NCBI RefSeq assembly: GCF_003432035.1 | Contig: NZ_QOHO01000022.1 | Location: 1-64,000, forward strand | Source of the DNA: Lacrimispora amygdalina | GTDB lineage: Bacteria > Bacillota > Clostridia > Lachnospirales > Lachnospiraceae | Reading direction: 5' to 3' | Length of the DNA stretch: 64,000 nt | Shown: positions 37,548 to 64,000 of the stretch, in pieces | Position numbering within the stretch: the stretch's first letter is position 1 | How the letters are laid out: each line of letters opens with the position of its first letter | Program-made: the position numbers and the translations under genes | Notes under the pieces: generated by a model | Seen by the model: the letters and a program-made list of their open reading frames with translations, nothing else | Told to the model about the DNA's origin: nothing | The model's database searches: none

Positions 37548-37925
37548 CTACTTTTGGTATTTTACATGAATCAGAGCATTCTCCATTATCTCAAATACAT
37601 GCTCATTATTCATGGAATAATAGACAAATTTCCCCTCTTTTCTTGATTTTACCTGGCCGGATACCTTAAGCAGTTTTAATTGATGGGATATTGCTGATTT
37701 CGTCATATCTAAAATGACGGCAAGATCATTCACACATAATTCACTTTTTGATAATGCATACATGATCTTTATTCTGGTATCATCACTAATTAATTTTAAG
37801 AATGCCAAGAGAAGAGAAAAACAGCCGTCATCTTTCATTTCTGACTTCACTTTTTCTGCCAATTCCTGATTAATAGCCTGACAGTCACACTTATTAACTG
37901 AACCTCCCATACTGCACCGTTCCAT
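37548..37925 (-). CDS. ArsR/SmtB-family regulator, CadC-like
   Basis: 125 aa. It has a CadC-like Cys-bearing N-terminus (Cys4, Cys13 and Cys15 in NKCDC), a winged helix (SISDDTRIKIMYAL-like region, then SAISHQLKLL) and a beta-hairpin (SRKEGKFVYYSM). The alpha-3 metal motif reads ELCVNDLA: only the first Cys of the usual ELCVCDLA remains, the second being Asn. It could still bind Cd, Pb or Zn through other ligands or sense something else. No metal pump lies nearby. AGGGATC precedes ATG 37925. A -10 box and an inverted repeat upstream suggest autorepression. Confidence 0.82.
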   Translation of the reverse strand: MERCSMGGSVNKCDCQAINQELAEKVKSEMKDDGCFSLLLAFLKLISDDTRIKIMYALSKSELCVNDLAVILDMTKSAISHQLKLLKVSGQVKSRKEGKFVYYSMNNEHVFEIMENALIHVKYQK

Positions 37926-37982: not shown

Positions 37983-38705
37983 TTATGATACATAGCAATC
38001 AGCTTTTTTAAGCGTGCGGTTAATGTAGGCTGTGACATTTCCAATATTTTGGTTTAGGAAAAAATGTCCTCCGCTAAAATATACAATTTCTGCCTCATTT
38101 AACAAATTCTCGTTCCACGCTTCTATGCCTTCTTCGGTAATCGTATCATCCTTGCCGCACAGAATCGAAACTCCACACTCAAGTTTGCTTTTTCCAGGGG
38201 TATAGATGTACTTTTCCGTAATTTTATAATCTGCCCTGATTAGCGGAACAAAAATTTCAGCCAGCGCGCTATCTTCAAAAACAGCTTTCGGCGTGCCCCC
38301 CATTTTTAAAATGGCATTCTTAAATTCATGTTCCGGCAGATTATGGATTATTCTATTTCTTTTCACATTCAGCTGGGGGGCCCTGTTTCCGGAGAAAAAA
38401 ATATGTTCCGGCATACGAAGACCTGACTTTTTTAACTCATGATATAATTCAAATGCAATCCAACTGCCCATACTGTGCCCGAATATGGCATACGGTGTAT
38501 CTTTTATCTGATTTTTTATGGAACAGCACACATCCTGTGCTGCTCCATTCATACTGTCATATAAGGGAACATCAATTCTGCTCCCTCTTCCTGCTAATTC
38601 CACAGGCTGCAAATCTATATCCTTATCCAGAAATTTGCTCCATTGATAATATATCATAGCGGAACTTCCCGCATAAGGCAGACAAAACAACTTAATTCTG
38701 CTCAC
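37983..38705 (-). CDS. Type II thioesterase of the NRPS cluster
   Basis: 240 aa. The alpha/beta-hydrolase triad is Ser78 in GHSMGSW, Asp in LCGKDDTIT near residue 188 and His in GGHFFLNQ near residue 218. The start LFCLPYAGSSAMIYYQW is typical of GrsT/SrfD enzymes. It removes mis-loaded or stalled acyl groups from carrier domains. The start is GTG 38705 (AAAGGAG 9 bases upstream), inside the last 14 bases of the NRPS-B gene, so it is co-translated. It does not release product, since both assembly lines end in reductase domains. Confidence 0.93.
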   Translation of the reverse strand: MSRIKLFCLPYAGSSAMIYYQWSKFLDKDIDLQPVELAGRGSRIDVPLYDSMNGAAQDVCCSIKNQIKDTPYAIFGHSMGSWIAFELYHELKKSGLRMPEHIFFSGNRAPQLNVKRNRIIHNLPEHEFKNAILKMGGTPKAVFEDSALAEIFVPLIRADYKITEKYIYTPGKSKLECGVSILCGKDDTITEEGIEAWNENLLNEAEIVYFSGGHFFLNQNIGNVTAYINRTLKKADCYVS

Positions 38706-50700: not shown

Positions 50701-52473
50701 CTGGCTGTCATCAAGCAGGATCACTTCACCGTCAAAATCCGCTTTATCCCTCAGATACTTTTGAGTCAGCAAAATTTCCGACGCGCTGTCTTCCAGCATA
50801 TACTTTATTCTTTCTGAAGGATAGTTGGGATCAATGGTTAAATAAGCGCCGCCTGCTTTGAGTATTCCCATCATACCTATGATCATTTCAAATGAACGTC
50901 CGGTCATGAGGGCAATGATCTGATCTTTTTTCACCCCCCTCTCTCTCAGTGTCCATGCCAGCTGGTTTGCCCTTTGGTTTAATTCACGGTACGTAAGCTT
51001 CTCATCTTCCAGACATAGGGCAGCCTGTTCCGGATATTTTAAAACCTGTTCCTCAAACAGAGTGTGAATGGTCTTGTTTTTGGAATAATCCGCAGCTGCT
51101 GCATGAAACTCTTCTAACATCTTCTTTTGTTCCCATTCAGGTACAATACCGATTTCTGTTATGATGGATTCGTTATATTCCAATACCTGGCGGAATAAAA
51201 AGTCAAAATGAGAGACCACATGTTCAATTGGAATAAATTTGTCAAACACATCCATGCGGTAGGAAAAATCAATATAAACTTCTGCATTCTCATACTCTCT
51301 TAAATAGACTGTCAGGGCATTGCGTTCATGATGATGAGGCAGCATTACATGGCTTCCTATTTCAGCATCCACAAAGCTTTCCGTCGCCCCATGCTTTTCA
51401 TAGGAAAACGAAATATCAAAAAGACTGCTTTTTTCGTTTGTTGTACGGAAAACAGACCGGTAGATTTCTCCGGTGGAAACCCTCATGTGCCTGTAGCAAT
51501 CCATGAGCTCATTTTTAATGTATTTCACAAGTTCCTGAAAGCTCATATCGCTTCCCGGAGATATCCTCAACGGAATCACATTGGCAAAATGTCCCATTGT
51601 CTGCTTATATTTTGTTTTACTTCGGTTTAAAACCGGCACGCCGATCACTACCTCTTCCTTATCGCATACTCTGCTGAAATAGGTAAATAAGGTTCCAAGT
51701 ACAAAGTGAAAGACAGAACAGCCCCTTTCTTCACTAAACTGAATGATCCGGTTATATAATTCCCTGTCTAGCTTTAAAATTCGCCTGCCGCTCCAGTCTG
51801 ACTGCATGTCCGGACCGGTTCCGTTAGCGTTTCGGTTAAACAATGGCTCTGGAATAGTTAAATACTTTTCCCTCCAGAATTCCCGGTCTTTTATAAAACT
51901 GTTTGAATTATGGTAGCTTTGATCTTCCAACAGGAAATCGTGATAGGAATAGACCGGTTTCTCTTCCGTTTTTCCCTCTCTGTATAATTCATTATAGTTT
52001 TCTATGATTTGTTTGTGAGTGAGTACAAAGCCCCAGCCATCTATAATAAGATGAAAGGCTTTGATGAATACAAAGTACTGGTTATCACTCCATTTCAGCA
52101 GGTCAAACTGGAAGAGCTGTTTTCCCATATCAAAGGGCTTCTGAAACTCTCCCCGCATCCATTCCATACAAAACTCACGGGGATTTTTCTTCCCGGAGAA
52201 ATCATGCACAGGCAGTTCATACAAAGACTCTGATAATATGTTCAGATATGGTACTCCGTCCCTTTCTGTCATTTTAGCCCGCATCATTTCATTGCGGTTT
52301 ATAAAAACCTGAATGGCCTGGTTAAATAATGGTACATTAATTTCGCCTTTTATTTCTGTATATCCGCCAATATTATAAATCGGCTTACCGGGATACATAC
52401 ACTGTTCCAGCCATATATCCTTCTGGTATGAGCTTAACGGATATTCTGTAACGTTTTTCATTTTTGTTTCCAT
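38692..52473 (-). CDS. NRPS-B: four-module synthetase ending in reductase (C-A-T x4, R)
   Basis: 4593 aa. A starter-type condensation domain comes first (residues 10-440; FHLIIDG at 140-146, first His of the motif replaced by Phe), suggesting N-acylation. Modules 1-4 carry A3 motifs near residues 615, 1650, 2695 and 3740 and carrier Ser motifs GGDS near 997, GGHS near 2042 and 3086, and GGNS near 4117. Condensation domains 2-4 have HHIISDG. My reading of the specificity residues gives D-A-W-L-V-G-A-V-I for A1, D-A-K-D-I/V-G-V-V-D for A2 and A3 (the glutamate code of surfactin synthetase) and D-A-W-L-V-G-A-I-I for A4 (hydrophobic, unassigned). No epimerase. The C-terminal reductase (GSTGYLG near 4212, YSQTK) would release an aldehyde or alcohol. 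AAGGGGAG precedes ATG 52473; acyltransferase gene 22 bases upstream. Confidence 0.95.
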   Translation of the reverse strand: METKMKNVTEYPLSSYQKDIWLEQCMYPGKPIYNIGGYTEIKGEINVPLFNQAIQVFINRNEMMRAKMTERDGVPYLNILSESLYELPVHDFSGKKNPREFCMEWMRGEFQKPFDMGKQLFQFDLLKWSDNQYFVFIKAFHLIIDGWGFVLTHKQIIENYNELYREGKTEEKPVYSYHDFLLEDQSYHNSNSFIKDREFWREKYLTIPEPLFNRNANGTGPDMQSDWSGRRILKLDRELYNRIIQFSEERGCSVFHFVLGTLFTYFSRVCDKEEVVIGVPVLNRSKTKYKQTMGHFANVIPLRISPGSDMSFQELVKYIKNELMDCYRHMRVSTGEIYRSVFRTTNEKSSLFDISFSYEKHGATESFVDAEIGSHVMLPHHHERNALTVYLREYENAEVYIDFSYRMDVFDKFIPIEHVVSHFDFLFRQVLEYNESIITEIGIVPEWEQKKMLEEFHAAAADYSKNKTIHTLFEEQVLKYPEQAALCLEDEKLTYRELNQRANQLAWTLRERGVKKDQIIALMTGRSFEMIIGMMGILKAGGAYLTIDPNYPSERIKYMLEDSASEILLTQKYLRDKADFDGEVILLDDSQSFNDNKDNPENRSNPEDLAYIIYTSGSTGKPKGVMVKHQGILNLQAFFVQKHEMNKNDRMLQFASSSFDASVWEIFTTLLTGASLYLIPKETINNLMEFEKYVNKTGITIALLPPTYLSNLEPGNLPTLTRLVTGGSAITKEMVKKWKDGLTYINAYGPTEYSVITTTWTYKEEEMEYESVPIGTPVNNTRVFILDKKRHMLPIGAAGELCISGDGLARGYLNRPELTKEKFVDNPFESGEKMYRTGDLARWLPDGNIEFLGRIDDQVKVRGFRIELGEIESQLLKLPQIKEAAAVARDDSQGNKYIAAYIVWEEALPLDRLRAELLQELPDYMVPSCFVQLDQMPFTVNGKIDRKALPEPDLTMDTGAEYEAPSDELEEGICRLWKKIFKAERVGINDNFFALGGDSLNAIVLSSEIHKEFNSNIPLKEIFAGPTVRDMAQYLRNAKQDIYASIKPVEQAEYYPMSSAQKRIFVLGQLEDGKTVYNIPGAVLIEGGIDAQKTEAVFKQLIERHETLRTSFEMINGEPVQRVHEQADFSVSYREVPEETTDNLLDEFIKPFDLSKAPLLRVGLVKTGENRHVLLFDMHHIISDGVSMEILIREFTTLYEGMELDPLRLQYRDYSAWQNQMYEDGTLKKQEEYWLKTFEGDIPVLNMPLNYQRPAVQSFEGDRIRFHLSQDITRKLQVVAKDNGATMYMVLLAAYNILLYKYTGQEDIIVGSPIAGRPHADLQNIIGMFVNTLAMRNYPQGEKTFQDFLTEVREMALGAYENQDYPFEELVEKLKLKRDVSRNALFDAFFALQSVDTAAFAMDGLSMIPYSYDVKMSKFDIALTAKEEEEGIAFELAYCIRLFSKEFMEKTAIHYGALLEEIGSCPQTRLKDLQMLEKEEIQRIVYGFNDNAAEYSRNKTIIQVFEEQAKKNPDRVAVEFEESSLTYGELNARSNQLAGVLRENGAGTEKTIGIMTERSVEMIVGIMAVLKAGSAYLPIDPLYPEARIRYMLEDSQTEILLTQTEVMDKVQFTGKILDLKNESLYQGDAANISSLNFPDDMAYVIYTSGTTGKPKGVIIEHRNVLNLTAGLNRHIYGAYDRNLKVALVAPYVFDASVKQIFPTLMLGHTLCIVPEEARIDGTSLLRYYKEHSVDVSDGTPAHIRFLENAMLDGADALTVKHFIIGGEALGIETVKSFYDRISGEKPRITNVYGPTECCVDSTLFSIDDETAAGLNSVPIGVPLNNVQVYILGKDREVLPIGAAGELYISGDGVGRGYLNRIELTEQKFVENPFVPGSRMYRTGDLARWLPDGTIEFLGRIDYQVKIRGYRIELGEIENRLLTHESVREAAVIDREDGYGTKYLCAYIAGKEDLTTGELREFLLRDLPDYMVPSYFIQLEKLPLTFNGKLDRKALPEPEGRIDTGVEYEKPEGMVEEKLAGIWQEVLKIEKIGRMDNFFELGGHSLKATVLVSRIHKEFNINIPLKTIFAGPTIKETAEYIKNAKEDIYASIKPVEKAEYYPMSSAQKRVFVLGQLEDSKTVYNMPGAVMIEGSVDGLKTEAAFKKLIKRHETLRTSFEMMDGEPLQRVHDEADFCVSCKEAPGETTEDLLNEFIKPFDLSKAPLLRVELVKTGENSHVLLFDMHHIISDGVSMEILIREFIALYEETNLNPLRLQYRDYSAWQNQMYEDGTLKKQEDYWLKTFQGEIPVLNLPLDYKRPAVQSFEGDRIRFRLSQEVSQKLRGVARENGATMYMVLLAAYNTLLYKYTGQEDIIIGSPIAGRPHADLQNMIGMFVNTLAMRNYPQGEKTFEKFLAEVREMALGAYENQDYPFEELVEKLNLKRDVSRSALFDAFFALLNVDSASLVMDGLNITPYSYEVKMSKFDIALTAKEEEAGIEFELAYCTRLFRKETMEKAAIHYGTLLEEIANDPQTRLKDLQMLEKEEIQRIVYGFNDNSAEYFKDKTIIQVFEEQAEKSPDRTAVEFEENSLTYGELNARSNQLAAVLRENGAGPDKTVGIMAERSVEMIVGIMAVLKAGSAYLPVDPLYPEARIRYMLEDSQTEILLTQSELLDKVQFSGKMLDLKNESLYQGEAGNIAPVNTPQNMAYVIYTSGTTGKPKGVVIEHRNVLNLTAALNRHIYGKYNRNLKVALVAPYVFDASVKQIFPTLMLGHTLCIVPEEARLDGTSLLRYYKEHSVDISDGTPAHIRFLENAMLDGADALTVKHFVIGGEALGIETVKSFYDRIAGEKPRITNVYGPTECCVDSTLFTIDYETAARLDSIPIGVPLDNVKVYILGKDREVLPVGAAGELYISGDGVGRGYLNRKELTEQKFVENPFVSGSRMYRTGDLARWLPDGTIEFLGRIDYQVKIRGYRIELGEIENRLLTHESVREAAVIDREDGYGTKYLCAYIAGKEELTTGELRAYLLKDLPDYMVPSYFIQLEKLPLTFNGKLDRKALPEPEGRIDTGVEYVKPEGIVEEKLAVIWQDVLKAEKIGRMDNFFELGGHSLKATVLVSRIHKEFNINIPLKEIFAGPTIAEMKKYIENAKEDIYASIEPAKKAQYYPMSSAQKRVYVLSQLGGNGITYNMPSALRIEGNVDIERLQTAFSQLIERHETLRTSFKTIDGELIQWVDAHVDFTVGYEEAAEEEGKEIVRNFVKPFDLSKAPLLRAGLVKLKNESYILMFDMHHIISDGVSMEILLREFSALYEGKELKPLHLQYRDYSVWQKQMYGNGSLKHQESFWLETLGGEIPVLNLQTDYKRPAVQSFEGGRVRFRIGSQITGKLGEIAKENGATMYMVLLAAYNTLLYRYTGQEDMIVGSPIAGRPHADLQNIIGMFVNTLAMRNYPQGEKTYKEFLAEVREMALGAYENQDYPFEEIVEKLGLKGDMSRNALFDTMFALQNMETGSFELAGMKAAPYGGGAPISKFDITLAAIETQEGISFELEYGIKLYKKETMEALSEHFVNILKAVAENPEVKLKDIPILDEEERKKILYCFNRTAEPYPKHSTIHGAFEEQVRRYPDKAAVVFGESSLSYLELNKRANALAEILQNRGVGTDKIVAIMAERSLEMIVAMFGVLKAGGAYLPVDPNYPEDRIRYMLEDSGAAVVLTQRHLKEKAVTDSEVIFLDDQFGECGENPENLSSAGDLAYIIYTSGSTGKPKGVMVEHHGIINLRNYFKRYWKVDENERMLQFASSSFDASVWEIFTCLLGGGTLYLISKDTINNLNEFEAYVNEKEITIALLPPTYLAGIEPGKLRTLKKLVTGGSAITKNLADQWKDSVEYMNAYGPTEYSIITSAWKYRAEEMCYGSVPIGRPVDNTRIYILDKNGNLLPVGAAGELCVAGDGIARGYLNRPELTAEKFTADPFLSGERMYHTGDLARWLPDGNIEYMGRIDDQVKIRGFRIELGEIEDRLLQCPLVREAVVMAREDSHGDKYLVSYYTGEEELEAAKLREQMAQALPDYMVPSYFVQLDAMPVTANGKIDKKALPEPEIGGCGQAEYIGPRNDTDAKIQKVWQEVLGIGQISIDDNFFMLGGNSIKAIQTVSKLAMEFEIEINDIFKCLTIRVLSDHIRYSKDRLKNALNAYREAAVTAQSGVAALDEGMEKRIIKYKTRIQKYKKMDLSEKADYRNILLAGSTGYLGIHILYQLLQNTDYKLYVPIRSKDDEEAFERLCKKLEYYFNPDAQLKNVLADRVFAFRGDLAKENMGLSRELYEVLADKIDVIINSAANVKHYGHYSELYDANVAGNERLIEFARTGKKKAYNLISTTSIGEGAIEGKKRELFTEYDCDLGQNSENYYSQTKFEAEKMVVKAREEGVNANVFRVGNLVFDSATGIFQENITNNAFYAVIRSCINLGCFPETAEKNINFSFIDQVAKAVVLLFDRKKLQNETYHLYNSHTVSMSFVAELINQAGVKVKIIPPAEFVENLLKKYDDKDKTDDITQILVHTNMLSGSMEKTSFTLLNSKTDVILKAAGFEWSRLDCEKVKLMLEHCMKVGFINRFVKEREREQN
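43065..49300. repeat. Tandem duplicated modules 2 and 3 of NRPS-B
   Basis: Modules 2 and 3 (C-A-T, both read as Glu) repeat with a period of exactly 3135 bases (1045 codons). For example 43501-43596 and 46636-46731 are identical over 96 bases. Divergence is spread unevenly, with whole A-domain blocks nearly identical. Outer boundaries given are approximate. Confidence 0.85.
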
Positions 52474-52495: not shown

Positions 52496-53770
52496 CTATG
52501 AATTTAATAAATGTTTCTCAGATAATATCCTGTCAAAAAGAGAAATAACTTCTTCCGGATCGTAAAGATTTTTTGAAACGCATAGTTCCATCATTAACCG
52601 GCCTGAAATGGTAGCCGACGAAAGGAAAAGTGACTGGGCTCTCACAGAAATATAAAAGGATTCCACCCATTTTTCCATAATTGGATATGATATAATGCCA
52701 AGGTTAGAAAGAGTGATTGACGTATTCATCAACGGCCCCCTTTCAGACATGGTTTTCTTACACGATTTCAAACATAGACTCTTGTATTTTTCCAATGAAC
52801 TGGAGCATACCGCTGCCAGACGCAGCAAGCCGTACGGAACTCCTCTTTTGAACCATTTAAACGCTTCTTTTACCTGTTTTCTCAAATCTCCCTCCCGGAA
52901 GAACTGCGCCGGAAGACTCGCCACATAATTACCATGCATGGTCTGTGGCGAATAGGAATGCAAAGGCTGTATGTCCATAGGCATGGAGACAAGCACACGC
53001 TGTTTTCCGGAATCATGCTCCAATAATCCATCCGTCATTCTGTAACAGAGATATTCGCCAAATGTCATATCATACCGTCTGCTCTGGCGTAATATTTCCC
53101 GGGTTTTTTCAGCACTGAAGCTGTAGGATTTTTTCACATAGCCTCTGCCTTTCTTTGGTTTTCTGTCATAACTTAAGTCTAACGTTTCGTTTTTATCCTT
53201 CTTATTCGCATGGAATGCAAAGCCCGTTAAAAAAACAGGCAGCCATAAATAGGCAGAAATTCTTCTTACCGTGCGAAGAATCCGATCTCTTAAGCCGGAA
53301 GAGGCGTCTGTCTCTCCCGGCACTGTGTCAATTTCACATGAATAGTATTCAAGCCACTTCTTAATCCAGAATATCAGTCCCCGGCCATTGGTCACTGCAT
53401 GGTGCATGGAAAATACCATCGTATTCTCATTTACAGGAAACAGGTGAAAAACCAGCCTGGAATTGGTGGAATCGTATCGTTCCAAAACCTCTTCCTCAGT
53501 ATAATACTTAGAAAGCTGCTCCTCTTCATAATCAAGCAAAGCTTTTAGCTCCTCTTTTGGAAACCGGTTCCATTTGAACGTATTTTTTTCAGGCTGTTCC
53601 ACCATTTTTGCCTGCAGCAGCGGATTTTCCATAACCAGCGCCCGGTAGCTGGGATACAATCGTTCCGGATCAATTTTTTTCTTAAAGCTGACTGTTGCTA
53701 TCATGCAATTGGACGAATTAAATTCTTCTGTTCCAAAAAAATATAAACTTGCAAGTTTGATTGCATCCAT
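52496..53770 (-). CDS. Stand-alone condensation-like acyltransferase
   Basis: 424 aa. The fold resembles the condensation/PapA/wax-ester-synthase superfamily: an N-terminal half with SMHHAVTNGRG near residue 122, where HHxxxDG has become HHxxxNG, and a C-terminal half ending with NTSITLSNLGIISYP, as in PapA-type acyltransferases. The catalytic second His is kept; the structural Asp is Asn. It lies between the two NRPS genes (23 and 22 bases away), so it likely acylates or couples the products: an ester, an N-acyl cap or joining of two chains are all possible. GGAGG is 9 bases before ATG 53770. I cannot assign donor or acceptor. Confidence 0.75.
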   Translation of the reverse strand: MDAIKLASLYFFGTEEFNSSNCMIATVSFKKKIDPERLYPSYRALVMENPLLQAKMVEQPEKNTFKWNRFPKEELKALLDYEEEQLSKYYTEEEVLERYDSTNSRLVFHLFPVNENTMVFSMHHAVTNGRGLIFWIKKWLEYYSCEIDTVPGETDASSGLRDRILRTVRRISAYLWLPVFLTGFAFHANKKDKNETLDLSYDRKPKKGRGYVKKSYSFSAEKTREILRQSRRYDMTFGEYLCYRMTDGLLEHDSGKQRVLVSMPMDIQPLHSYSPQTMHGNYVASLPAQFFREGDLRKQVKEAFKWFKRGVPYGLLRLAAVCSSSLEKYKSLCLKSCKKTMSERGPLMNTSITLSNLGIISYPIMEKWVESFYISVRAQSLFLSSATISGRLMMELCVSKNLYDPEEVISLFDRILSEKHLLNS

Positions 53771-53793: not shown

Positions 53794-56700
53794 TTACTGC
53801 ATAAACCCTACATTTCTGCAGTGTTCAATCATGAGCTTTACTCTGCTGCCGTCAAGCTTCGGCCACTCAAATCCCAGTGCTTTTAAGATACCGTCGGTCT
53901 TTCTGTTCTTCACCAGGAATAATGTTTTGCTGGCTCCTTCAAAGAATATATTGGAATGGACAAGTATTCTGGATACTTCCTGTTTCGCATCATCATCATC
54001 GTATTTTTTCAGAATAAATGAGGTAAACTTGTCCACGGGCATCGTCTCCACTTCCACTCCTGCCTGATTTAAAAACCGGGCAAAGGAAATCATATTGATC
54101 CGATGGCTGTTAAATAAATGGTACGTCTCATTTTTTAAATTCTTCCTGTCAAACAGCAGTACGACAGCTTTCGCCACCTGGTCAACAAAGGAAAAGTCCA
54201 GGGTTTTATCAGCAATCGCAGGGACATATCCAAGTTTTATCAGGGATTTCACCATGGTGTAGAACGCATTATCCTGAATATTTTCCTGGAAAATACCGGA
54301 CTTTGAATCAAAAACCAGATTTCCCACCCTGAAAACATTGCATATAATGCCTTCTTCTCTCGCCCTGACGATCTGCTTCTCAGCCTCCAGTTTCGTCATT
54401 ACATAGTAGTTATCGGAGCTCTGTTCCACATCACAGTCATACTCAGTAAACACCACGCTTGACTGATCTTCTATGAATCCGCTTCCCACACTGGTGGTAG
54501 AGATGAAGTTATACACCTTTTTCTTCCCTGTACCGGCAAATTCAATGAGCCTTTTATTTCCTTCCACATTAATTGCATAAAACTCCGAGTAATTCCCAAA
54601 ATGCTTTACATTTGCCGCTGAGTTTATGACTGCATCAATTTTTTCTGCCAGACTTTCATAACGCTCTTTGCTCAGCCCGAAGTATTCCTTTGTTAAATCT
54701 CCGCAAAATACACACAATCTGTCTTCCAGTGTTTCCTGTCCGCAGATTTCATTTCCAAAGTGGAACTTAAGCTTTGCATGCAGCCTTTCCCGTGCATCAC
54801 TGTCATCCTTTCCTCTGACAGCTATGTAAATCTTATAATCAGTAATCTTCAGCAGCTGATGTACAATCTGTATTCCAAGATAACCGGTTCCTCCGGCCAC
54901 CAGTATATTCTGGTAGCCAGCCTTTTCCGAAATCTCAACTCCCTTATACTTCTGATTTCTTTTATGGTATTCTTTCAGGCTTTTGAGGATTCTGCCATCA
55001 CTGGCTCCCCTTCCTTCAATCCTGGTGACCGCTGCTTCCTGCAGTGCTTCAATCGCTGTCTTCAGCCTGTCTTTGGAGTATTTTATCTGATCTGACAGAC
55101 TCCGTATTGTGGGATATTGGAAAATGTCATTGATTCCAATTTCAAATTCCGACGCCAGCCTTGATACAGCCTGAATCGCCTTGATGGAATTACCGCCTAG
55201 CATAAAGAAATTGTCGTCGATTCCGATTGATTCAATTCCCAGTGTATCCTGCCACACTTCCTGAATCTTCTTATCCGCATCGTTTCTCGGGCTTATGAAA
55301 TCTGCCCCTGAATTTCCGCGCATTTCAGGCTCCGGCAGTGTTTTTTTGTCTATCTTACCGCTTTGAGTCATGGGCATGTGCTCCAGCTGCATAAAGAAGG
55401 CTGGGACCATGTAGTCCGGCAGTTCCTTTAAAAGATGTTTTTTCAATTCTTCCGCTTTCAGCTCTTCTTCCGAAGTAAAATATGCTGTCAGATACTTCTC
55501 TTTCTTTTTATCCTCTCTGGCGATCACTGCCACTTCACGGATCAGCGGATACTTATGTAAGTTTGCTTCAATCTCCCCAAGCTCAATCCGAAATCCCCGG
55601 ATCTTTACCTGGTCATCAATTCTCCCCAAATATTCCACATTCCCATCCGGCAGCCAGCGGGCAAGGTCTCCTGTCCGGTACATCTTCTCTCCGGCTTCAT
55701 ACGGATTATCCACAAACTTTTCTGCAGTCAGGGACTGGCGGTTTAAATAGCCTCTGGCAATGCCGTCTCCCGATACGCACATCTCTCCGGCCGCTCCCAC
55801 CGGCAAAAGCTTCTGGTCCTTATCCAGTATATAGATCCTTGTATTGGACACAGGCTTTCCAATGGGGACCGAATCACATCCCATCTCCTCGTTCCGGTAT
55901 TTCCATGCAGTTGCAATTACACTGTATTCGGTAGGACCATAAGCATTCATATAGGCCGCCTTATCCTTCCACTTTGAAACCAGTTCCTTTGTAATAGCCG
56001 ATCCGCCGGTTACCAGCTTCTTTAATGACGGAAGGCTTCCCGGCTCAATGCCTGAAAGGTATGCAGGCGGCAGAAGGGTGATGGAGATTTTGTTTTCATT
56101 GATGAAATTCTTAAAATCATCCAGATTATTAATCACATCTCTGGAAACCAGATAAAGTGTTCCCCCGCCCAGCAGAATGGTAAAGGTCTCCCATACGGAG
56201 GCATCAAAGGAGCTGCTGGCAAACTGAAGCATCCGGTCTGATCCGTCCACGCCCCAGCTTTCCTTAAAGTAATTCTGCAGATTCAAAATTCCGTGATGTT
56301 CCACCATGACCCCTTTCGGTTTTCCGGTAGAGCCTGATGTATAGATGATATACGCCAGATCATCTGGTTTATTTACAGGCTTGGGATTGGCATCCTCTTC
56401 CAGATAAACATCCTCCTCATTCAGACAGATTATATTACCGTTATACTGAATACTGTCTTTTAGATGCTTTTGAGTCAGCAGAACGCCAGCGCCGCTGTCC
56501 TCCAGCATATATTCAATCCGGTCCTGCGGATAGCCTGGATCTATGGGCAGGTAGGCACCTCCGGCCTTGAGCGTACCAAATATCCCTGTTACCATATCCA
56601 GAGAACGTTCCGTCATCACAGCAACAATGCTGTCCGGTTTCACTCCCTTTCTCCTCAGCGCATGGGCAAGCCTGTTGGCTTTTTGGTTCAGTTCCCTATA

Positions 56701-59700
56701 GGTCAGTTTTTTATCTTCAAAAACGAGCGCCGTATGTTCCGGTCTTTGTTCTGCCTGCTCCTCAAACAAACCGTGGATGGTCTGATTTTTTGGATATTCC
56801 ATCACTGTCTGATTAAAATCATGAAGCAGCATACGCCTTTCTCCTTCCGGTACTACATCGATCTCTTCAACGGACATCCCGGGGCGCTTTACGATTTCAC
56901 TGATCATGGTTTTCATCTGTTCAGCAATCCGGGCGAGAAAGCTTTTGTTATAAACCAGACTGTTGTATCGGAATTTGATTTGCAGATCCTTTCCCGGCAT
57001 TATAATAATATTTAAGTCAAAATTCGTCTGCTCGGATACCTTTGCTGAAAGAATGGTGATATGATCCCTGCCGTTGTCATCTCCCTTAACGGCTTCCTCC
57101 ATGGGATAATTTTCAAAAGCCATAAGGCTCTGAACCAGTTCCCCTTTGCAGGATATCCTGGACTGAATTTCTGCCAGCGGATAATAACTGTGTTTCTCAG
57201 ACTCCAGCGCCTCCCGCTGCTGTCTTGAAATAAGAGAGGAGAAGCTTTCCCCTTTTTCTGACCGGACTCTGACTGGAATGGTATTAATAAAGAGGCCTAT
57301 CATTCGTTCAACACCCTCTACCTCGGCCGGTCTGCCTGAAACTACTGATCCAAACACCACATCCCGGGTATTGCTGTACCTTTGCAGTAAGATTCCCCAT
57401 ACCGTCTGCATCACCGTACTTAAAGTGGCGGCGTTATCTCTTGCCGTTTTCTCAAGTCCTGCTTTCATTTCTTCATTTATTGTAAAATCGTATTCCTCCT
57501 GAAGATATCCCTGCCCGGCAGTTGTGACTTTCATTCTGGAGAGCTGTTCGGTCTGCTCATATTCCATGAGATACTGATCCCAGTAATCCGAAGCTTCCTG
57601 GTCATCTCTGTTTTCCAGCCATTGTATATACTGGCTGTATGGATACACCCTGCCTAACCGCGGGGAACTGCCTTCCCGGAACGCTTTATAGGATTCCAGA
57701 AGTTCCTTAAATACAATAGGCAGACACCAGCCATCCATGATGATATGATGGAAGCTCCAGATTAAATGGTAAATTCCCTCACTCACTTTAATCAGCATGA
57801 TCCTGACCAGCGGCTCATGGGTTAAGTCAAAGCCCTTTTTCCTGTCGCCAGCCATGCATTCTTCCAAATAGGATTTTTTTTGTCCTTCTGATAAAAGGGA
57901 AATATCCTTATAGTCCATTTTGGAAGTCCTGTCTTTTAAGACCACCTGAACCGGCTTGTCCACCTTTTCATAAATAAAAGCCGTTCTTAAAATATCGTGT
58001 CTTAAAATCACCTGCCAAAACGCCCGTTCAAACGCGTCTTTATCAACACTGCCCTTTAATGTGATCACTGCCTGCTCAAAATAAGCATTGGAATCTTTTT
58101 CCCTGAGGAAATGATACAGCATTCCAGTCTGCATGGGTGTCAGTGAATAAATATCCCTGATATTGTGTTTTGATGATTCCATCACGCGGTACACCGCTTC
58201 CACTTCCCGGGCGGTGATCTTCGAGGAGCTTAAATCGCCAGGTGTCAGTTCGGTATAATCCTGAGATACGCAGTGTTCAATCATTTGTATCAGGCTGCGT
58301 TTAAAATTATCAGCAATCCGGTTTATTGTAATCTTTTCATATTCACCCCTGTGATATGAAAAATGAAGCCCCAGCTTCCCGTTATTAATTCCTCCATAAA
58401 TATCAAGACAGTATGGCCGCTGCATTTCCGGTGAAATGGTTTCACCTGCTGAAATGTCCGTTAAGGTAAATAAATCGCTGTCAATATCCTGGTCAAATTG
58501 TCCAAGATAGTTGAAACTGATCTCCGGATTTAAATTGAACTTAAGCATTTCTTCATCTGGAAGAATCGTCTGATATTTTAAAATACCATAGCCCATTCCT
58601 CTCCCCGGTATGGTACGCAGGCTTTCTTTTACGGATTTAATTCTGGAAGATATGGACCCTGTCTCTTTCATATCTAAAATCACGGGATACTGTGTGGTAA
58701 ACCATCCTACGGTTCTGCTGATATCAATATCCCCGGCAATCTCTTCACGGCCATGTCCTTCTAAGTTAATGAGCACTTTTTCCTCACCGGTCCATTCTGA
58801 AACCGCCTCTCCCAGCGCTGCCAGAAGAATATCATTAATTTCGGTATGATACGCCTTGTTCACATCCCTGATCAGCCGGGAAGTCCGGATCTCATCAAGC
58901 TCCATGAAAACCTGGTCACTGTCCTTATATTTTCTGTTGGTGACAGTATGTTCCTTTGGAAGGGGTTTCACCTGGATTTTCTCAAGGGCGCTCCAGTATG
59001 GAATCTCCTTTTGAAGCTCTTCACTGTCGGCATACCCATAAAGTTTCTCCGACCATTCCTTAAAAGAGTCTGTTTTTTCAGGGAAATTAATTTCTTCTCC
59101 GTTAACCGCCTGCCGGTATCCTGTTGAAATATCCTCAAAGAGAATTCTCCATGAAATCCCGTCAACCACCAGATGATGGATGGCAAGGAGCAGATAATCT
59201 CCCTCTTTCGTCTGAAATAAGCCTGCATTTACCAGAGGCCCCTGCTTTATGTCCATAGAGGACTGTAGAATCCGGGCTTCTTCTTCCAATGCTTTCTCAT
59301 CTACCTGCATACTTGTGAGATCTCTTACAGCCAGCGAATAAAGATTGCCTTCCATCCCCCTGTTAAGCAGGGCAATCCGACCCGCTTTTTCTCTCATTAC
59401 AATCCGCAGCGCATCGTGGTGCTCTGCCACCCGGTCAAGTACTTTTCTCAGTGCCTCTTCGTTAAAGCCCTCTTTCCGGTACAGCATCACTGACTGGTTG
59501 AAGTGATTTCTATATTCAGAACAATGTTCAAAAAACCAGCTCTGGACAGGTGTAAGAATTACCTCTCCTTTTACAATTCCCTGAACAGCAGTACGTTTGG
59601 CTGTTTTAATATAAGCACTCAGTTCTTCGATGAACGGGTGTTCAAAAATATCCTTCAGCTCAAGCTTTAACTGATAACTGTTCAGTTTGGATAATACCTG

Positions 59701-62700
59701 TATGGCTTTAATAGAATCTCCGCCCAGATTAAAGAAATTGTCTTTGATTCCCACCCGTTCAAGTTCAAGCACCTTTTCCCATACCCGTACCATGATCTCT
59801 TCTGTTTTGTTTCTCGGCGCCACATATTCCACTGCAGCACTCATACCTGTATCTGGTTCAGGAAGGACCTTTTTATCAATCTTTCCGCTTTGATTCATGG
59901 GCATATGCTCCAGCTGTGTAAAGTAAGACGGCACCATATAATCCGGCAGTTCCTTTAATAGATGTTCCCGCAGTTCATCTCCTTTAAGCGGGCTGTCTGC
60001 CGTATAATACGCAGAAAGATATTTTTCTTTCTTTTTATCCTCTCTGGCGATCACTGCCACCTCACGGATCAGCGGATGCTTATGTAAGTTTGCTTCAATC
60101 TCCCCCAGCTCGATCCGAAATCCCCGGATCTTTACCTGGTCATCGATTCTTCCTAAATATTCCACATTCCCGTCAGGCAGCCAGCGGGCAAGGTCTCCTG
60201 TCCGGTACATCTTCTCTCCGGCTTCATACGGGTTATCAACAAACTTTTCTGCAGTCAGGGACTGGCGGTTTAAATAGCCTCTGGCAATACCGTCTCCCGA
60301 TACGCACATCTCTCCGGCCGCTCCCACCGGTAAAAGCTTCTGATCCTTATCCAGTATATAGATCCTTGTATTGGACACTGGCTTTCCAATGGGGACCGAA
60401 TCATATCCCATCTCCTCGTTCCGGTATTTCCACGCGGTTGCAATTACACTGTATTCTGTGGGACCATAAGCATTCATATAGGCCGCCTTGTCCTTCCACT
60501 TTGCAACCAGTTCCTTTGTAATAGCCGATCCGCCGGTTACCAGCTTCTTTAATGACGGAAGGCTTCCCGGCTCAATGCCTGAAAGGTATGCAGGCGGCAG
60601 AAGGGTGATGGTGATTTTGTTTTCATTGATGAAATTCTTAAAATCATCCAGATTATTTATCACATCTCTGGAAACCAGATAAAGTGTTCCCCCGCCCAGC
60701 AGAATGGTAAAAGTCTCCCATACGGAGGCATCAAAGGAACTGCTGGCAAACTGAAGCATCCGGTCTGATCCGTCCACGCCCCAGCTTTCCTTAAAATAAT
60801 TCTGGAGATTTAAAATTCCGTGATGTTCTACCATGACCCCTTTCGGTTTTCCGGTAGAGCCTGATGTATAGATGATATATGCCAGATCATCTGGTTTATT
60901 TACAGACTCCGGATTGGCATCCTCTTCCTGATAAACATCCTCCTCATCCAGACAGATTATATTACCGTTATACTGAATACTGTCTTTTAGATGCTTTTGA
61001 GTCAGCAGAACGCCAGCGCCGCTGTCCTCCAGCATATATTCAATCCTGTCCTCCGGGTAACCGGGATCTATGGGCAGGTAGGCACCTCCGGCCTTGAGCG
61101 TACCAAATATCCCTGTCACCATATCCAGGGAACGCTCGGTCATGACAGCAACAATGCTGTCCGGTTTCACTCCCTTTCTCCGCAGCGCATGGGCAAGCCT
61201 GTTGGCTTTTTGGTTCAGTTCCCTATAGGTCAGTTTTTTATCTTCAAAAACAAGCGCGGTATGCTCCGGTCTTTGTTCTGCCTGCTCCTCAAATAGACCG
61301 TGGATGGTCTGATCTTTGGAATATTCCATCACTGTCTGATTAAAATCATGAAGCAGCATCCGCTTTTCTGCCTCCGGCACCACTTCTATTGCAGAGATGG
61401 GAGTATCGCCATGTTCCATTGCTTCTGTGAATAAATATTCAAAATGGGAAATGAAGTTTTCAATGGGTATAAACTTTCTAAACACATCCAGCCGGTAATC
61501 AAAATTAACGCATACATCCGCTTCCCCCTCATGTCCCCAGATCAGAAGCATTAGAGCATTTCTTTCATGTTGATGCGTCATTGTTACATTCTGGCATTCA
61601 TCAGCAGTAACAAATTTTTTTCTGATTTCCTGTTCTTCAAAAGAAAGGGATATATCAAATAAGTTACCTTTCTCACTCACCCCTTCATAAACCGCCCGGC
61701 TGATGTCACCAAAGTTCGTTCTTTTATGACGGTAGCATTCAAAAAGTCCATGCCTGATCAGTTTCATAAGCTCTTTAAAGCTCATATCCGACTCCGGGTT
61801 TATTCTCAGCGGTATTACATTTGCAAAATGTCCCATGGTTTGTTTATATTTTGCATTGCTCCGGTTAAAAACAGGGACACCGATCACCAGGTCCTTCTGT
61901 TTGCAGACCTTGCTGAAATAGAGATATAAAATCCCCAATAAATAATGAAATGCAGAGCTGTTTTCCTCTTTGCAAAACTCAAGCATTCTGTTATATAGCA
62001 CTTTCTTAATTTTTAAAGTACTCCTGTCACTCCAAATGGAGCTGTTATTTTCACAATCATATCCGATCCCTTTACTTAAAAGCGGTTCAGGAATCGTCCG
62101 GTATTTGTTCTTCCAAAATTCAATGTCCTTTAAAAAGGCCGGGGAATTTCTATATTCCTGATCCTCGGCGATAAAATCGGTGTAGGAATAGGCATCTGCC
62201 TTTACTTCCGGATTTCCTTCCGACAGTTCATTGTAAGTATCAATCATCTGACTGTATAATAGTGCAAAGCCCCAGCCATCGATGATCATATGATAAACTT
62301 TCAGAAAAACAAAATATTCATTTTCACCACTTTTTAATAAAATAAACTTAAAAAAATAATCGTTTGGATCAAATGGTTTTAAAAACTCACTTTTAATCCA
62401 GTCAACACAAAAAGCAGCCGGGTTTTCTTTCATTGAATAGTCCAGAAATGGAGCTTTATAGTGGATTTCCGGCAGTATGGTCAGATACGCTTCTCCTGCC
62501 CGGTCTATAAGACGTGTTCTCAGAGTATCATTTTGATTGATGATTCTCTGCATGGTATTTCTGAATATTTCAATATCAATATTTCCTTTAATCCTGATAT
62601 AACCGCCAAGATTATAAATCGGTTTTCCTGGATGCATAAACTGCTCTAACCATATATCTCTCTGGTAAGAGCTTAGACTAAATTCCTTTGCATTTTCATT

Positions 62701-62709
62701 TGTACTCAT
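53794..62709 (-). CDS. NRPS-A: C-A-T-E-C-A-T-R dipeptide synthetase
   Basis: 2971 aa. Starter-type condensation domain (residues 10-440; YHMIIDG at 139-145, first His replaced by Tyr), A1 (A3 motif near 615), T1 (NLGGDSIKA near 996) and an epimerisation domain (HHLVVDGISW near 1180; EGHGRE near 1318; RTVGWFT). A condensation domain of the D-accepting type follows (DIYSLTPMQTGMLYH, FHHIIMDG near 1653), then A2 (near 2128), T2 (MLGGNSIKA near 2505) and reductase (GGTGYLG near 2607; YYVMTK). Both A domains read D-A-W-L-V-G-A-V-I, hydrophobic but unassigned. The predicted product is an N-acyl-D-X-L-X aldehyde or alcohol. GAGGGGAG lies 6 bases before ATG 62709. It is the first large gene of the operon; a terminator-like leader precedes it. 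Confidence 0.95.
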   Translation of the reverse strand: MSTNENAKEFSLSSYQRDIWLEQFMHPGKPIYNLGGYIRIKGNIDIEIFRNTMQRIINQNDTLRTRLIDRAGEAYLTILPEIHYKAPFLDYSMKENPAAFCVDWIKSEFLKPFDPNDYFFKFILLKSGENEYFVFLKVYHMIIDGWGFALLYSQMIDTYNELSEGNPEVKADAYSYTDFIAEDQEYRNSPAFLKDIEFWKNKYRTIPEPLLSKGIGYDCENNSSIWSDRSTLKIKKVLYNRMLEFCKEENSSAFHYLLGILYLYFSKVCKQKDLVIGVPVFNRSNAKYKQTMGHFANVIPLRINPESDMSFKELMKLIRHGLFECYRHKRTNFGDISRAVYEGVSEKGNLFDISLSFEEQEIRKKFVTADECQNVTMTHQHERNALMLLIWGHEGEADVCVNFDYRLDVFRKFIPIENFISHFEYLFTEAMEHGDTPISAIEVVPEAEKRMLLHDFNQTVMEYSKDQTIHGLFEEQAEQRPEHTALVFEDKKLTYRELNQKANRLAHALRRKGVKPDSIVAVMTERSLDMVTGIFGTLKAGGAYLPIDPGYPEDRIEYMLEDSGAGVLLTQKHLKDSIQYNGNIICLDEEDVYQEEDANPESVNKPDDLAYIIYTSGSTGKPKGVMVEHHGILNLQNYFKESWGVDGSDRMLQFASSSFDASVWETFTILLGGGTLYLVSRDVINNLDDFKNFINENKITITLLPPAYLSGIEPGSLPSLKKLVTGGSAITKELVAKWKDKAAYMNAYGPTEYSVIATAWKYRNEEMGYDSVPIGKPVSNTRIYILDKDQKLLPVGAAGEMCVSGDGIARGYLNRQSLTAEKFVDNPYEAGEKMYRTGDLARWLPDGNVEYLGRIDDQVKIRGFRIELGEIEANLHKHPLIREVAVIAREDKKKEKYLSAYYTADSPLKGDELREHLLKELPDYMVPSYFTQLEHMPMNQSGKIDKKVLPEPDTGMSAAVEYVAPRNKTEEIMVRVWEKVLELERVGIKDNFFNLGGDSIKAIQVLSKLNSYQLKLELKDIFEHPFIEELSAYIKTAKRTAVQGIVKGEVILTPVQSWFFEHCSEYRNHFNQSVMLYRKEGFNEEALRKVLDRVAEHHDALRIVMREKAGRIALLNRGMEGNLYSLAVRDLTSMQVDEKALEEEARILQSSMDIKQGPLVNAGLFQTKEGDYLLLAIHHLVVDGISWRILFEDISTGYRQAVNGEEINFPEKTDSFKEWSEKLYGYADSEELQKEIPYWSALEKIQVKPLPKEHTVTNRKYKDSDQVFMELDEIRTSRLIRDVNKAYHTEINDILLAALGEAVSEWTGEEKVLINLEGHGREEIAGDIDISRTVGWFTTQYPVILDMKETGSISSRIKSVKESLRTIPGRGMGYGILKYQTILPDEEMLKFNLNPEISFNYLGQFDQDIDSDLFTLTDISAGETISPEMQRPYCLDIYGGINNGKLGLHFSYHRGEYEKITINRIADNFKRSLIQMIEHCVSQDYTELTPGDLSSSKITAREVEAVYRVMESSKHNIRDIYSLTPMQTGMLYHFLREKDSNAYFEQAVITLKGSVDKDAFERAFWQVILRHDILRTAFIYEKVDKPVQVVLKDRTSKMDYKDISLLSEGQKKSYLEECMAGDRKKGFDLTHEPLVRIMLIKVSEGIYHLIWSFHHIIMDGWCLPIVFKELLESYKAFREGSSPRLGRVYPYSQYIQWLENRDDQEASDYWDQYLMEYEQTEQLSRMKVTTAGQGYLQEEYDFTINEEMKAGLEKTARDNAATLSTVMQTVWGILLQRYSNTRDVVFGSVVSGRPAEVEGVERMIGLFINTIPVRVRSEKGESFSSLISRQQREALESEKHSYYPLAEIQSRISCKGELVQSLMAFENYPMEEAVKGDDNGRDHITILSAKVSEQTNFDLNIIIMPGKDLQIKFRYNSLVYNKSFLARIAEQMKTMISEIVKRPGMSVEEIDVVPEGERRMLLHDFNQTVMEYPKNQTIHGLFEEQAEQRPEHTALVFEDKKLTYRELNQKANRLAHALRRKGVKPDSIVAVMTERSLDMVTGIFGTLKAGGAYLPIDPGYPQDRIEYMLEDSGAGVLLTQKHLKDSIQYNGNIICLNEEDVYLEEDANPKPVNKPDDLAYIIYTSGSTGKPKGVMVEHHGILNLQNYFKESWGVDGSDRMLQFASSSFDASVWETFTILLGGGTLYLVSRDVINNLDDFKNFINENKISITLLPPAYLSGIEPGSLPSLKKLVTGGSAITKELVSKWKDKAAYMNAYGPTEYSVIATAWKYRNEEMGCDSVPIGKPVSNTRIYILDKDQKLLPVGAAGEMCVSGDGIARGYLNRQSLTAEKFVDNPYEAGEKMYRTGDLARWLPDGNVEYLGRIDDQVKIRGFRIELGEIEANLHKYPLIREVAVIAREDKKKEKYLTAYFTSEEELKAEELKKHLLKELPDYMVPAFFMQLEHMPMTQSGKIDKKTLPEPEMRGNSGADFISPRNDADKKIQEVWQDTLGIESIGIDDNFFMLGGNSIKAIQAVSRLASEFEIGINDIFQYPTIRSLSDQIKYSKDRLKTAIEALQEAAVTRIEGRGASDGRILKSLKEYHKRNQKYKGVEISEKAGYQNILVAGGTGYLGIQIVHQLLKITDYKIYIAVRGKDDSDARERLHAKLKFHFGNEICGQETLEDRLCVFCGDLTKEYFGLSKERYESLAEKIDAVINSAANVKHFGNYSEFYAINVEGNKRLIEFAGTGKKKVYNFISTTSVGSGFIEDQSSVVFTEYDCDVEQSSDNYYVMTKLEAEKQIVRAREEGIICNVFRVGNLVFDSKSGIFQENIQDNAFYTMVKSLIKLGYVPAIADKTLDFSFVDQVAKAVVLLFDRKNLKNETYHLFNSHRINMISFARFLNQAGVEVETMPVDKFTSFILKKYDDDDAKQEVSRILVHSNIFFEGASKTLFLVKNRKTDGILKALGFEWPKLDGSRVKLMIEHCRNVGFMQ
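55480..61340. repeat. Near-identical adenylation domains A1 and A2 of NRPS-A
   Basis: The two A-domain coding blocks (about 60000-61340 and 55480-56815) align at an offset of exactly 4527 bases. Runs such as 60507-60611 and 55980-56084 appear identical. This points to recent duplication or gene conversion. Confidence 0.8.
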
Positions 62710-62725
62710 AAATATCTCCCCTCAT

Positions 62726-62768
62726 AAAAAAAGCAGTCTGTCCCCATAAAAATTATTGGAACAGGCTG
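62726..62768 (-). terminator. Terminator-like attenuator between agrD and NRPS-A
   Basis: On the minus strand CAGCCTGTTCC pairs with GGGGACAGACTG (one mismatch, one wobble) around an AT-rich loop, then GCTTTTTTT. The U-run ends only 17 bases before the NRPS-A start, so the hairpin precedes the ribosome site rather than ending an operon far away. Confidence 0.7.
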
Positions 62769-62773
62769 CAGTC

Positions 62774-62824
62774 ATTGCCTGGTTTCCTTCGGCGGCCTGG
62801 CAATCATAGCTGAGTAACCAGCTA
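62774..62824 (-). other. Two leader hairpins between agrD and the attenuator
   Basis: TAGCTG/CAGCTA (62807-62812 and 62819-62824, 6-base loop) and ATTGCC/GGCAAT (62774-62779 and 62799-62804) are consecutive perfect stems. With the terminator hairpin they give a three-hairpin leader RNA just after agrD. Confidence 0.5.
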
Positions 62825-62828
62825 TTAC

Positions 62829-62972
62829 TTAAAATCTGCGCAGTTTTTTAGCATTGTCCGGAAGTTTGGGCTGATGAATAAACAGCATGCATGCTAAATT
62901 CATATTTAATGATGTAAAACTCAGCGCAAGACTCGCTATTATTTTTACAAGTTTAAAAAATAAAAGTTCTAT
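62829..62972 (-). CDS. agrD: AgrD-like cyclic thiolactone autoinducer precursor
   Basis: About 47 aa. An amphipathic N-terminal helix (ELLFFKLVKIIASLALSF) is followed by NLACMLFIHQPKLPDNAKKL. The Cys, the five-residue ring region CMLFI, HQP-x-x-P and a basic tail match clostridial AgrD; the C. perfringens peptide has ACLWFTHQPEEP at the same place. The predicted signal is a thiolactone ring Cys-Met-Leu-Phe-Ile with a short N-terminal tail. A perfect AGGAGG at 62981-62986 stands 8 bases before an ATA codon (62972) and 5 before an ATC. No ATG, GTG or TTG is near, and the longer open frame from ATG 63113 lacks a ribosome site. The gene lies divergent from agrA/agrC and directly upstream of the NRPS genes. 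AgrB, which cyclises the peptide, is not in the window. Confidence 0.8.
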   Translation of the reverse strand: MELLFFKLVKIIASLALSFTSLNMNLACMLFIHQPKLPDNAKKLRRF

Positions 62973-63013
62973 GATTTTCCCCTCCTCTCTATTGTATTCT
63001 GCTTTCAGACTGT

Positions 63014-63083
63014 ATTTTATCAAATAATTTACTATAAAATAACTTAATGTAGTGAATGGTACTTTCGATTGATGTGAAATGTA
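63014..63083 (-). promoter_or_regulatory. agrD promoter candidates and LytTR-type direct repeat
   Basis: On the minus strand TACATTTCAC (63074-63083) and TACCATTCAC (63052-63061) are 8/10 identical with a period of 22 bases (12 between). That matches LytTR regulator sites, which span two helix turns. The proximal copy covers the -35 position of a -10 TATAGT (63031-63036); TAAAAT (63014-63019) is an alternative -10. No consensus -35 exists, as expected for AgrA-dependent promoters. Confidence 0.55.
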
Positions 63084-63097
63084 ACGATAAATTAAGA

Positions 63098-63126
63098 GTA
63101 GCAAAAATGACACATTTTGCTATAAT
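63098..63126 (+). promoter_or_regulatory. agrA promoter with extended -10
   Basis: TGCTATAAT (TATAAT at 63121-63126) is an extended -10; the -35 position (63098-63103) is poor. A near-perfect inverted repeat, GCAAAAATG/CATTTTGC, lies at 63101-63120 directly before it. Confidence 0.65.
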
Positions 63127-63177
63127 AAGAGTGTAATCGACAAATTTGTTACCAATATCTAACGGAAAGGAGAAACT

Positions 63178-63885
63178 ATGATTGATATTGCTATATGTGA
63201 TGATGATAATGCGATATGCTCTCAAATGGAGCAGATCATATCGGATTATGCTGCCAGAAATTTTTTAAAGATTGATTTAAACATTTTTAACAGCGGCGAA
63301 AGTCTTCTAAAATCGTTTAACCAGGATAAATCATTTGACCTGATTTTTCTGGATATTGAACTAGGCTGTATGAATGGCGTGGAAGCAGGCCGGCAGATAA
63401 GAAAAGTGCTGAAAAATTATAACACTGAAATTGTGTATATTTCAGGCAAGGACGCCTACGACAGACAGCTGTTTGACATTCAGCCCCTCCATTTTATCCC
63501 AAAGCCCATTAATCCGCTCACGGTCATCGAAGATTTAAAACTGGCTTTAGAACGAACCCGGAGGCTGGGGGGGTATTTCACCTATCAGAAAGGATATGAT
63601 ACGCACAAGATACCAATTAGTGAAATCATATATTTTGAAAGCTTAAACCGGGAAAACAGAATTGTTTTTACAACCGGAGAAGATTTTTTTTACGGGAAAC
63701 TGGAGGACACCGCCTTAAGTGTTACAAAATATCAATTTGTTCAGATACACCGGTCCTATCTAATCAATTATAACCATATTGCGATTTTGCGTTATACAGA
63801 AGTAGTGATGTCAAATGGTACGGTACTTCCTATCAGCAGATCAAAGCGCCATGAATTCCGCAGACTGCAGATCAGTGAAGAATAA
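63178..63885 (+). CDS. agrA: AgrA-type LytTR response regulator
   Basis: 235 aa. The receiver domain has acidic residues ICDDD, phospho-acceptor Asp59 in LIFLDIELG and the Lys in HFIPKPINPL. The C-terminal LytTR DNA-binding domain (FESLNRENRIVF, QIHRSYLINYNHI, NGTVLPISRSKR) contacts direct repeats two helix turns apart. AAAGGAG lies 5 bases before ATG 63178. It is followed by an agrC-like kinase gene 12 bases later and lies divergent to agrD and the NRPS operon, so it is the likely pathway activator at high cell density. Confidence 0.93.
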   Translation: MIDIAICDDDNAICSQMEQIISDYAARNFLKIDLNIFNSGESLLKSFNQDKSFDLIFLDIELGCMNGVEAGRQIRKVLKNYNTEIVYISGKDAYDRQLFDIQPLHFIPKPINPLTVIEDLKLALERTRRLGGYFTYQKGYDTHKIPISEIIYFESLNRENRIVFTTGEDFFYGKLEDTALSVTKYQFVQIHRSYLINYNHIAILRYTEVVMSNGTVLPISRSKRHEFRRLQISEE

Positions 63886-63897
63886 GGGGGAAACTTT

Positions 63898-64000
63898 ATG
63901 AATATGGAAAGCTACAATGCAGTCTACTGCCTGGGTAATCTGTTTATGACGTTTGTCATATACAAATATATGCATATTTTCTACTCAGACTGCAGGGTGA
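63898..64000 (+). CDS. agrC: Start of AgrC-like sensor kinase (cut by window end)
   Basis: Only 34 residues are present: MNMESYNAVYCLGNLF, then MTFVIYKYMHIFY as the first membrane segment. AAGGGGG lies 7 bases before ATG 63898. Position after agrA and the hydrophobic start fit the GHKL-type peptide-sensing kinase of Agr systems, but the kinase domain is outside the window. Confidence 0.6.
   Translation, partial: MNMESYNAVYCLGNLFMTFVIYKYMHIFYSDCRV

Follow-up and report, generated by a model that had tools for sequence, protein, structure and literature searches.

A divergent agr module with its signal gene ahead of reductase-ended NRPS genes in Lacrimispora amygdalina

Silent nonribosomal peptide synthetase (NRPS) clusters are difficult to activate in anaerobic Clostridia. 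In Lacrimispora amygdalina, a gene for an agr signal peptide lies ahead of two NRPS genes, and the question is whether signal and synthetases are controlled together. We analyzed positions 1-64000 (the window) of contig C91, which is 65210 nt long, in a 5.94-Mb genome of 174 contigs. The original prediction placed an AgrD-like peptide on the minus strand before two NRPS genes, with agrA and the start of agrC divergent on the plus strand, and profile matches confirmed this layout:

37548-37925, minus strand: ArsR-type HTH protein, probably the last gene of the NRPS operon
37983-38705, minus strand: thioesterase, overlapping the NRPS2 end; type II by its stand-alone place
38692-52473, minus strand: NRPS2, 4593 aa, with four condensation, four adenylation and four carrier domains and a C-terminal NAD_binding_4 (reductase) domain
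52496-53770, minus strand: stand-alone condensation-like protein, 424 aa (PF00668, 24 bits, under the cut-off of 30.6)
53794-62709, minus strand: NRPS1, 2971 aa, with three condensation-type, two adenylation and two carrier domains and a C-terminal NAD_binding_4 (reductase) domain
62829-62972, minus strand: agrD, 47 codons plus stop (IELLFFKLVKIIASLALSFTSLNMNLACMLFIHQPKLPDNAKKLRRF), with a predicted CMLFI ring before HQP
63178-63885, plus strand: agrA, Response_reg plus LytTR DNA-binding domain
63898 to C91:65193, plus strand, running beyond the 64,000-nt window: agrC, GHKL histidine kinase, 431 aa

Thus agrA and agrC diverge from the minus-strand agrD and NRPS genes, and agrD is adjoined by the two regulatory genes that mark an agr system, one for a GHKL sensor kinase and one for a response regulator of the LytTR type. 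The NRPS genes are not directly adjacent to one another, because the condensation-like gene stands between them, and the ArsR-type gene is followed by a hairpin and T tract at about 37443. Aldehyde release is established for the C-terminal reductase domain family, and since both synthetases end in such a domain, their products are likely released as aldehydes. In being modular and ended by a reductase, they resemble the aureusimine-type NRPS (AusA) and the dipeptide-aldehyde NRPSs of gut clostridia; NRPS1 partly matches NF047350, with 1451 of 2500 bits (below the cut-off). Unlike both of these types, the NRPSs here are larger and carry N-terminal condensation domains. Elsewhere in the window, at 20096-24264, this Clostridia-class genome encodes an AcrB-type RND pump with an HlyD-type adaptor.

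The nearest relative that we found is L. amygdalina src4 (G010; NZ_OAOF01000004.1), which belongs to the same genus, is treated here as a sister species and gives a 95% match to NRPS1. The original prediction had proposed a search for the same agrD-NRPS order in related genomes, and src4 has it. There, agrB directly follows agrC (L030:4216-4785; PF04647, 146 bits) at full length and retains the GGYHAR...C motif, which we take to be the catalytic His/Cys region, so that the order agrD / agrA-agrC-agrB makes a complete agr set at the locus.

The agrD gene is well supported by profile. It matched NCBIfam TIGR04223 (quorum_AgrD) with 38.8 bits on the DNA of this genome (cut-off 19), a 43-aa version of the product scored 40.2 bits, and the same search gave matches in 0 of 14 control genomes. 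The product consists of a leader, a Cys ring and a tail opening with QP, and C28, Q34, P35 and P38 are invariant in an alignment with five other AgrD sequences. A CMLFI pentapeptide thiolactone is plausible because of the analogy with [CLWFT] of C. perfringens, one of the rings tabulated with their agr systems in Table 1 of PMC12312760. However, agrD has no ATG, GTG or TTG start in a usable position. The codon aligned with the starting methionine of the five other AgrD sequences (as cut for the alignment) is AUA, at 62972-62970, and a good Shine-Dalgarno sequence, GAGGAGGGG, stands at normal distance before it. The same AUA is found in src4, and the agrD of another relative, G009, starts with ATG. 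An upstream GTG, which would open a 94-aa ORF from 63113, was rejected because the repeat site described below lies within that ORF. AUA is a poor start codon, so agrD is probably translated weakly and signal output may be low; for the same reason, it is uncertain that agrD is expressed and its product processed and secreted as a thiolactone.

We then compared the agrD promoters of this genome (G000) and G009, which share a block with 29 of 40 positions identical at nearly equal distance to agrD. When the G000 promoter was dinucleotide-shuffled 200 times, this value was reached twice. The block contains direct repeats, TACMNTTCAYWWCAW, located 74 nt before agrD and spaced in a 22-base register. 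Such a register equals two turns of the helix and is the spacing seen with LytTR regulators. The upstream features are:

63047-63083, minus strand: candidate AgrA site, direct repeats TACATTTCACATCAA and TACCATTCACTACAT in a 22-base register
63000-63046, minus strand: putative agrD promoter, with a -10-like GATAAAAT near 63021-63014 read from sequence; the promoter pattern scan gives instead a weak site, TTGATA-16-CAGAAT, at 63023-62996

A repeat pattern built from G000 and G009 was scanned over five genomes (G000, src4, G009, G008 and G012) and gave five matches, four of them just upstream of agrD; the reversed pattern, used as a control, gave none in all five. The matches in G000, G009 and src4 had no mismatches, for the first two by construction and for src4 nearly so. 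G008 was not used for the pattern and is an independent test: its repeats match with two mismatches and, in a locus ordered agrA-C-D-B, are located behind agrC at a distance of 62 nt from the agrD ATG. G012 had no match within three mismatches, though a weaker look-alike is visible by eye at the corresponding place before agrD. The fifth match (C6:7026 in this genome) has three mismatches and nearby long ORFs that run the opposite way, and was treated as chance rather than as a second AgrA target. Because this genome holds no second good match to the pattern, the putative AgrA circuit appears to be confined to agrD and the NRPS genes. The repeats are present before agrD without an NRPS (G009) and in the agrA-C-D-B order (G008), and therefore the site appears to go with agrD within this agr subfamily, irrespective of the genes downstream. 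In S. aureus agr as well, tandem repeats for the LytTR regulator stand upstream of the activated promoters; here, repeats upstream of a presumed activated promoter are seen as sequence only, and the locus thus offers a candidate LytTR repeat for this subfamily.

The original prediction went further and held that AgrA switches on agrD and the synthetases together, with agrD as first cistron of the biosynthetic transcript. The repeat site speaks for this, as does the position of agrD at the head of the NRPS genes, and the promoter scan listed no minus-strand site in the agrD-NRPS1 gap. Against it stands what the 119-bp gap contains, in addition to the AUA start:

62806-62825, minus strand: leader hairpin 1, by folding
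62774-62804, minus strand: leader hairpin 2, by folding
62726-62769, minus strand: intrinsic terminator (attenuator), -17.0 kcal/mol, U7 tail

The third hairpin, the terminator, stops 16 bp short of the start codon of NRPS1 and ranks third among the 138 runs of at least six T on both strands of the window, the first two ranks being one hairpin on two strands. It is absent from the output of the pattern scanner, probably because mismatches interrupt its stem. The whole 136-nt leader has only a modest folding advantage over shuffled sequences (z -1.74), 14 of 200 of which fold as well. In src4, the terminator (-16.9) and the other stems are kept, and the three differences in the 119 bases fall in the hairpin 1 loop, the closing G-U pair of hairpin 1 and the apical loop of the terminator. 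A known riboswitch or leader RNA was rejected for want of an Rfam family match: there were none at gathering score in the window, and at E values up to 10 the region 62600-63250 gave five matches (best E 0.59), none inside 62710-62828. Antitermination by LoaP was also discarded, as the sole NusG-family match scored 95 bits (cut-off 125) and its neighbors, by eye secE and rplK, mark it as housekeeping nusG.

With a terminator between agrD and NRPS1, the synthetases would need read-through. We lean toward an AgrA-driven agrD-NRPS transcript that is attenuated after agrD, and this is the simplest reading because no promoter site is listed in the gap. The strong terminator may instead simply separate two units, agrD being a short AgrA-driven unit and the NRPS genes being transcribed from a promoter of their own that escaped recognition, so that their adjacency is incidental. 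We consider this somewhat unlikely, although it gains from the placement of the terminator so close to the NRPS1 start codon, and from G009, which has the same divergent agr unit with no NRPS beside it. Promoter scans are also crude, with 9 sites where chance alone would give 6.3, and a weak promoter-like site lies within agrD at 62918-62891. On the other hand, there is no other gene start between agrD and NRPS1, and the hairpin-bearing gap has diverged less from src4 than have NRPS1 and agrA, though not less than agrC. The numbers of differing bases are 0 of 144 in agrD, 3 of 119 in the leader and 4 of 205 upstream of agrD (7 of 468 together), and 58 of 710 at the NRPS1 5' end; agrA has 34 of 708 and agrC 23 of 1296. 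As evidence of special constraint the low leader and promoter divergence is weak, since it is no lower than that of agrC; agrD alone is lower. The identity of agrD indicates no decay, but constraint on it is not proven, because the rate of agrC predicts only two or three differences.

The spread of the arrangement was examined from both sides. With agrC as query, 15 of 61 genomes (own counted) passed 1e-40, and among the 60 relatives identities above 50% were found in src4 (99%) and G009 (53%). G009 shares the divergent layout, with AgrA 60% and AgrC 53% identical to those of this genome, and no NRPS was found in the 20 kb examined around its agr locus. After agrD it carries instead (L031:14906-17689) an EamA transporter, a B12-binding/radical SAM piece and a thioesterase piece. 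Both pieces look truncated, and the set hints at a different secondary-metabolism cargo that may have decayed. The agrA-C-D-B loci of G008 and G012, from the same genus, encode AgrD sequences 49% and 53% identical to that described here, and G008 has the repeat site before agrD; unlike here, agrD and agrB are collinear behind agrC, and in G008 no NRPS was present among the ORFs of the 19 kb examined. With the NRPS1 N-terminus as query, the GTDB 220 species collection gave two loci, both L. amygdalina, at 95% and 24%, by a method that finds close relatives only. Among 397 family genomes drawn from a larger group, six matched at 1e-50: this genome and five at 27-28% identity, src4 not being among the matches of that draw. 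The arrangement is so far known in just two close species, and a close NRPS1 relative was found in just one other species.

In the reading that we favor, the agr system would be split into two divergent units, one of agrA-agrC-agrB (agrB as seen in src4) and one of agrD with the NRPS operon. AgrB would convert AgrD to a small cyclic thiolactone, predicted to be CMLFI, and AgrC would sense it and phosphorylate AgrA. AgrA would then bind the tandem repeats at 63047-63083 and activate the agrD promoter. Most transcripts would end at the terminator at 62726-62769, leaving the signal in excess, and the read-through fraction would serve as NRPS mRNA. This model is based on the gene identities, the gene order in two species, the repeat before agrD in four species and the terminator in both species, from which we infer AgrA binding, ring structure, promoter position, read-through and density control of the NRPS genes. 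Given the NRPS adjacency, the AgrA-type site and the terminator, the peptides may be made only in a dense population. A predictable five-residue thiolactone that switches on an NRPS would, if this is true, be a direct handle on a silent cluster, and the locus is a case in which the joint action of quorum control and transcription attenuation could be tested. A two-input switch, which we hold to be unlikely, would have AgrA start agrD RNA at high density and the three-hairpin leader pass polymerase only under a second condition. A short structured RNA would then carry the signal ORF in an RNAIII-like position and layout, and the synthetases would need both a quorum and a second cue, the latter acting through a leader RNA outside the known Rfam families.

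The AgrB/C/D/A family set and the two divergent units recall S. aureus agr, as set out for agrBDCA and the divergent RNAIII in PMC12312760. In contrast to that system, agrD here takes the place of RNAIII across the divergent region, where it heads the NRPS operon, and the opposite unit has the order agrA-C-B. A clostridial agr system with an adjacent biosynthetic gene has been described in C. acetobutylicum, where, in the reporter assays of PMC10301443, the lanthipeptide-synthetase-like CA_C0082 next to agrBD/agrCA was under agr control; at our locus, control is proposed from sequence. The cases differ in that the C. acetobutylicum assays concern one LanM-like gene after agrCA, fused through its own 88-bp upstream region, and not an NRPS operon behind agrD. 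According to PMC11316579, cyclic-lactone-autoinducer clusters are common in Lacrimispora genomes and one species has an NRPS cluster, the two not being linked in the cluster descriptions there. Literature searches of titles and abstract starts, with few subscription papers, found no agrD heading an NRPS operon, and a report elsewhere is possible.

The original prediction proposed extending the contig past 64000 for agrC and agrB, and supposed that AgrB must be encoded elsewhere. The extension completes agrC, to 65193, but does not reach agrB: the contig stops 17 bases on, in the end of an IS110 element, at the agrB ribosome site. As agrB is the gene right after agrC in src4, a distant location is not required; here its place falls at the IS110 end and assembly break. 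With src4 AgrB as query, this assembly yielded only paralogues, at 26-35% identity. The original prediction had also staked itself on an agrB somewhere in the genome, and six other AgrB matches are present, along with six AgrD matches counting the agrD of this locus. Five of these six agrB genes lie within about 3 kb of their own agrD, which, with their low identity to src4 AgrB, led us to reject them as the source of AgrB; the agrB on C145 has no agrD nearby, and supply in trans from it may occur. The five further AgrD precursors, on C140, C96, C123, C40 and C122, have distinct rings, which amounts to several parallel agr channels per cell.

On the far side of the gap, the match of contig C144 to src4 begins 79 bases after the agrB end. 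The agrB of this strain was either deleted or left unassembled, and because it is absent from the assembly the agr system may be broken in this strain. Under that reading, the start of agrD would have decayed to AUA and IS110 would have removed agrB or severed it from the locus, so that the cell would produce no signal and AgrA would have nothing to do. We regard a dead or dying module as quite improbable. The AUA codon, the IS110 end directly after agrC and the lack of an agrB orthologue in the assembly would all fit it, yet AUA is common to both species, agrD is identical in them over its whole length, src4 has a full-length agrB, and the agrB stretch may merely be absent from the assembly. 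Moreover, IS110 right ends in this genome carry a Shine-Dalgarno sequence before an ATG.

The last 18 bases of C91 occur at four contig ends in this genome (C91:65193-65210, C98, C133 and C143; left end), exactly in five places in G023, and once with one mismatch in G022; the 22 remaining genomes searched had no copy. Two G023 copies (L069 and L070) share 1673 bases at 99.8%. In L069, two ORFs together encode an IS110 transposase; they score 115.8 and 118.3 bits to NF033542, each under the cut-off of 140. A group II intron, suggested by the GTGTG end, was rejected on the basis of this transposase and the lack of an Rfam match. This assembly yielded no match to the transposase, and we infer IS110 at this locus from its two ends; the missing transposase fits an unassembled repeat, which proves nothing.

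Right ends of the element were found at C19, C31, C39, C97, C123 and C167. The IS110-family element sits between Shine-Dalgarno sequence and start codon. In all six exact matches, two one-mismatch matches being left out, GGAATGGAGATTATT is followed immediately by the ATG of a gene. Because its right end brings a Shine-Dalgarno sequence, the element seems to give the gene that it separates a new ribosome site. At a second locus with agrA/agrC-like genes, the IS110 left end comes right after the kinase gene (L058, C133 start), and at the C123 start (L010) the right end is followed by agrB-agrD; two agr operons may thus have been struck by the same IS110 element, each at this junction.
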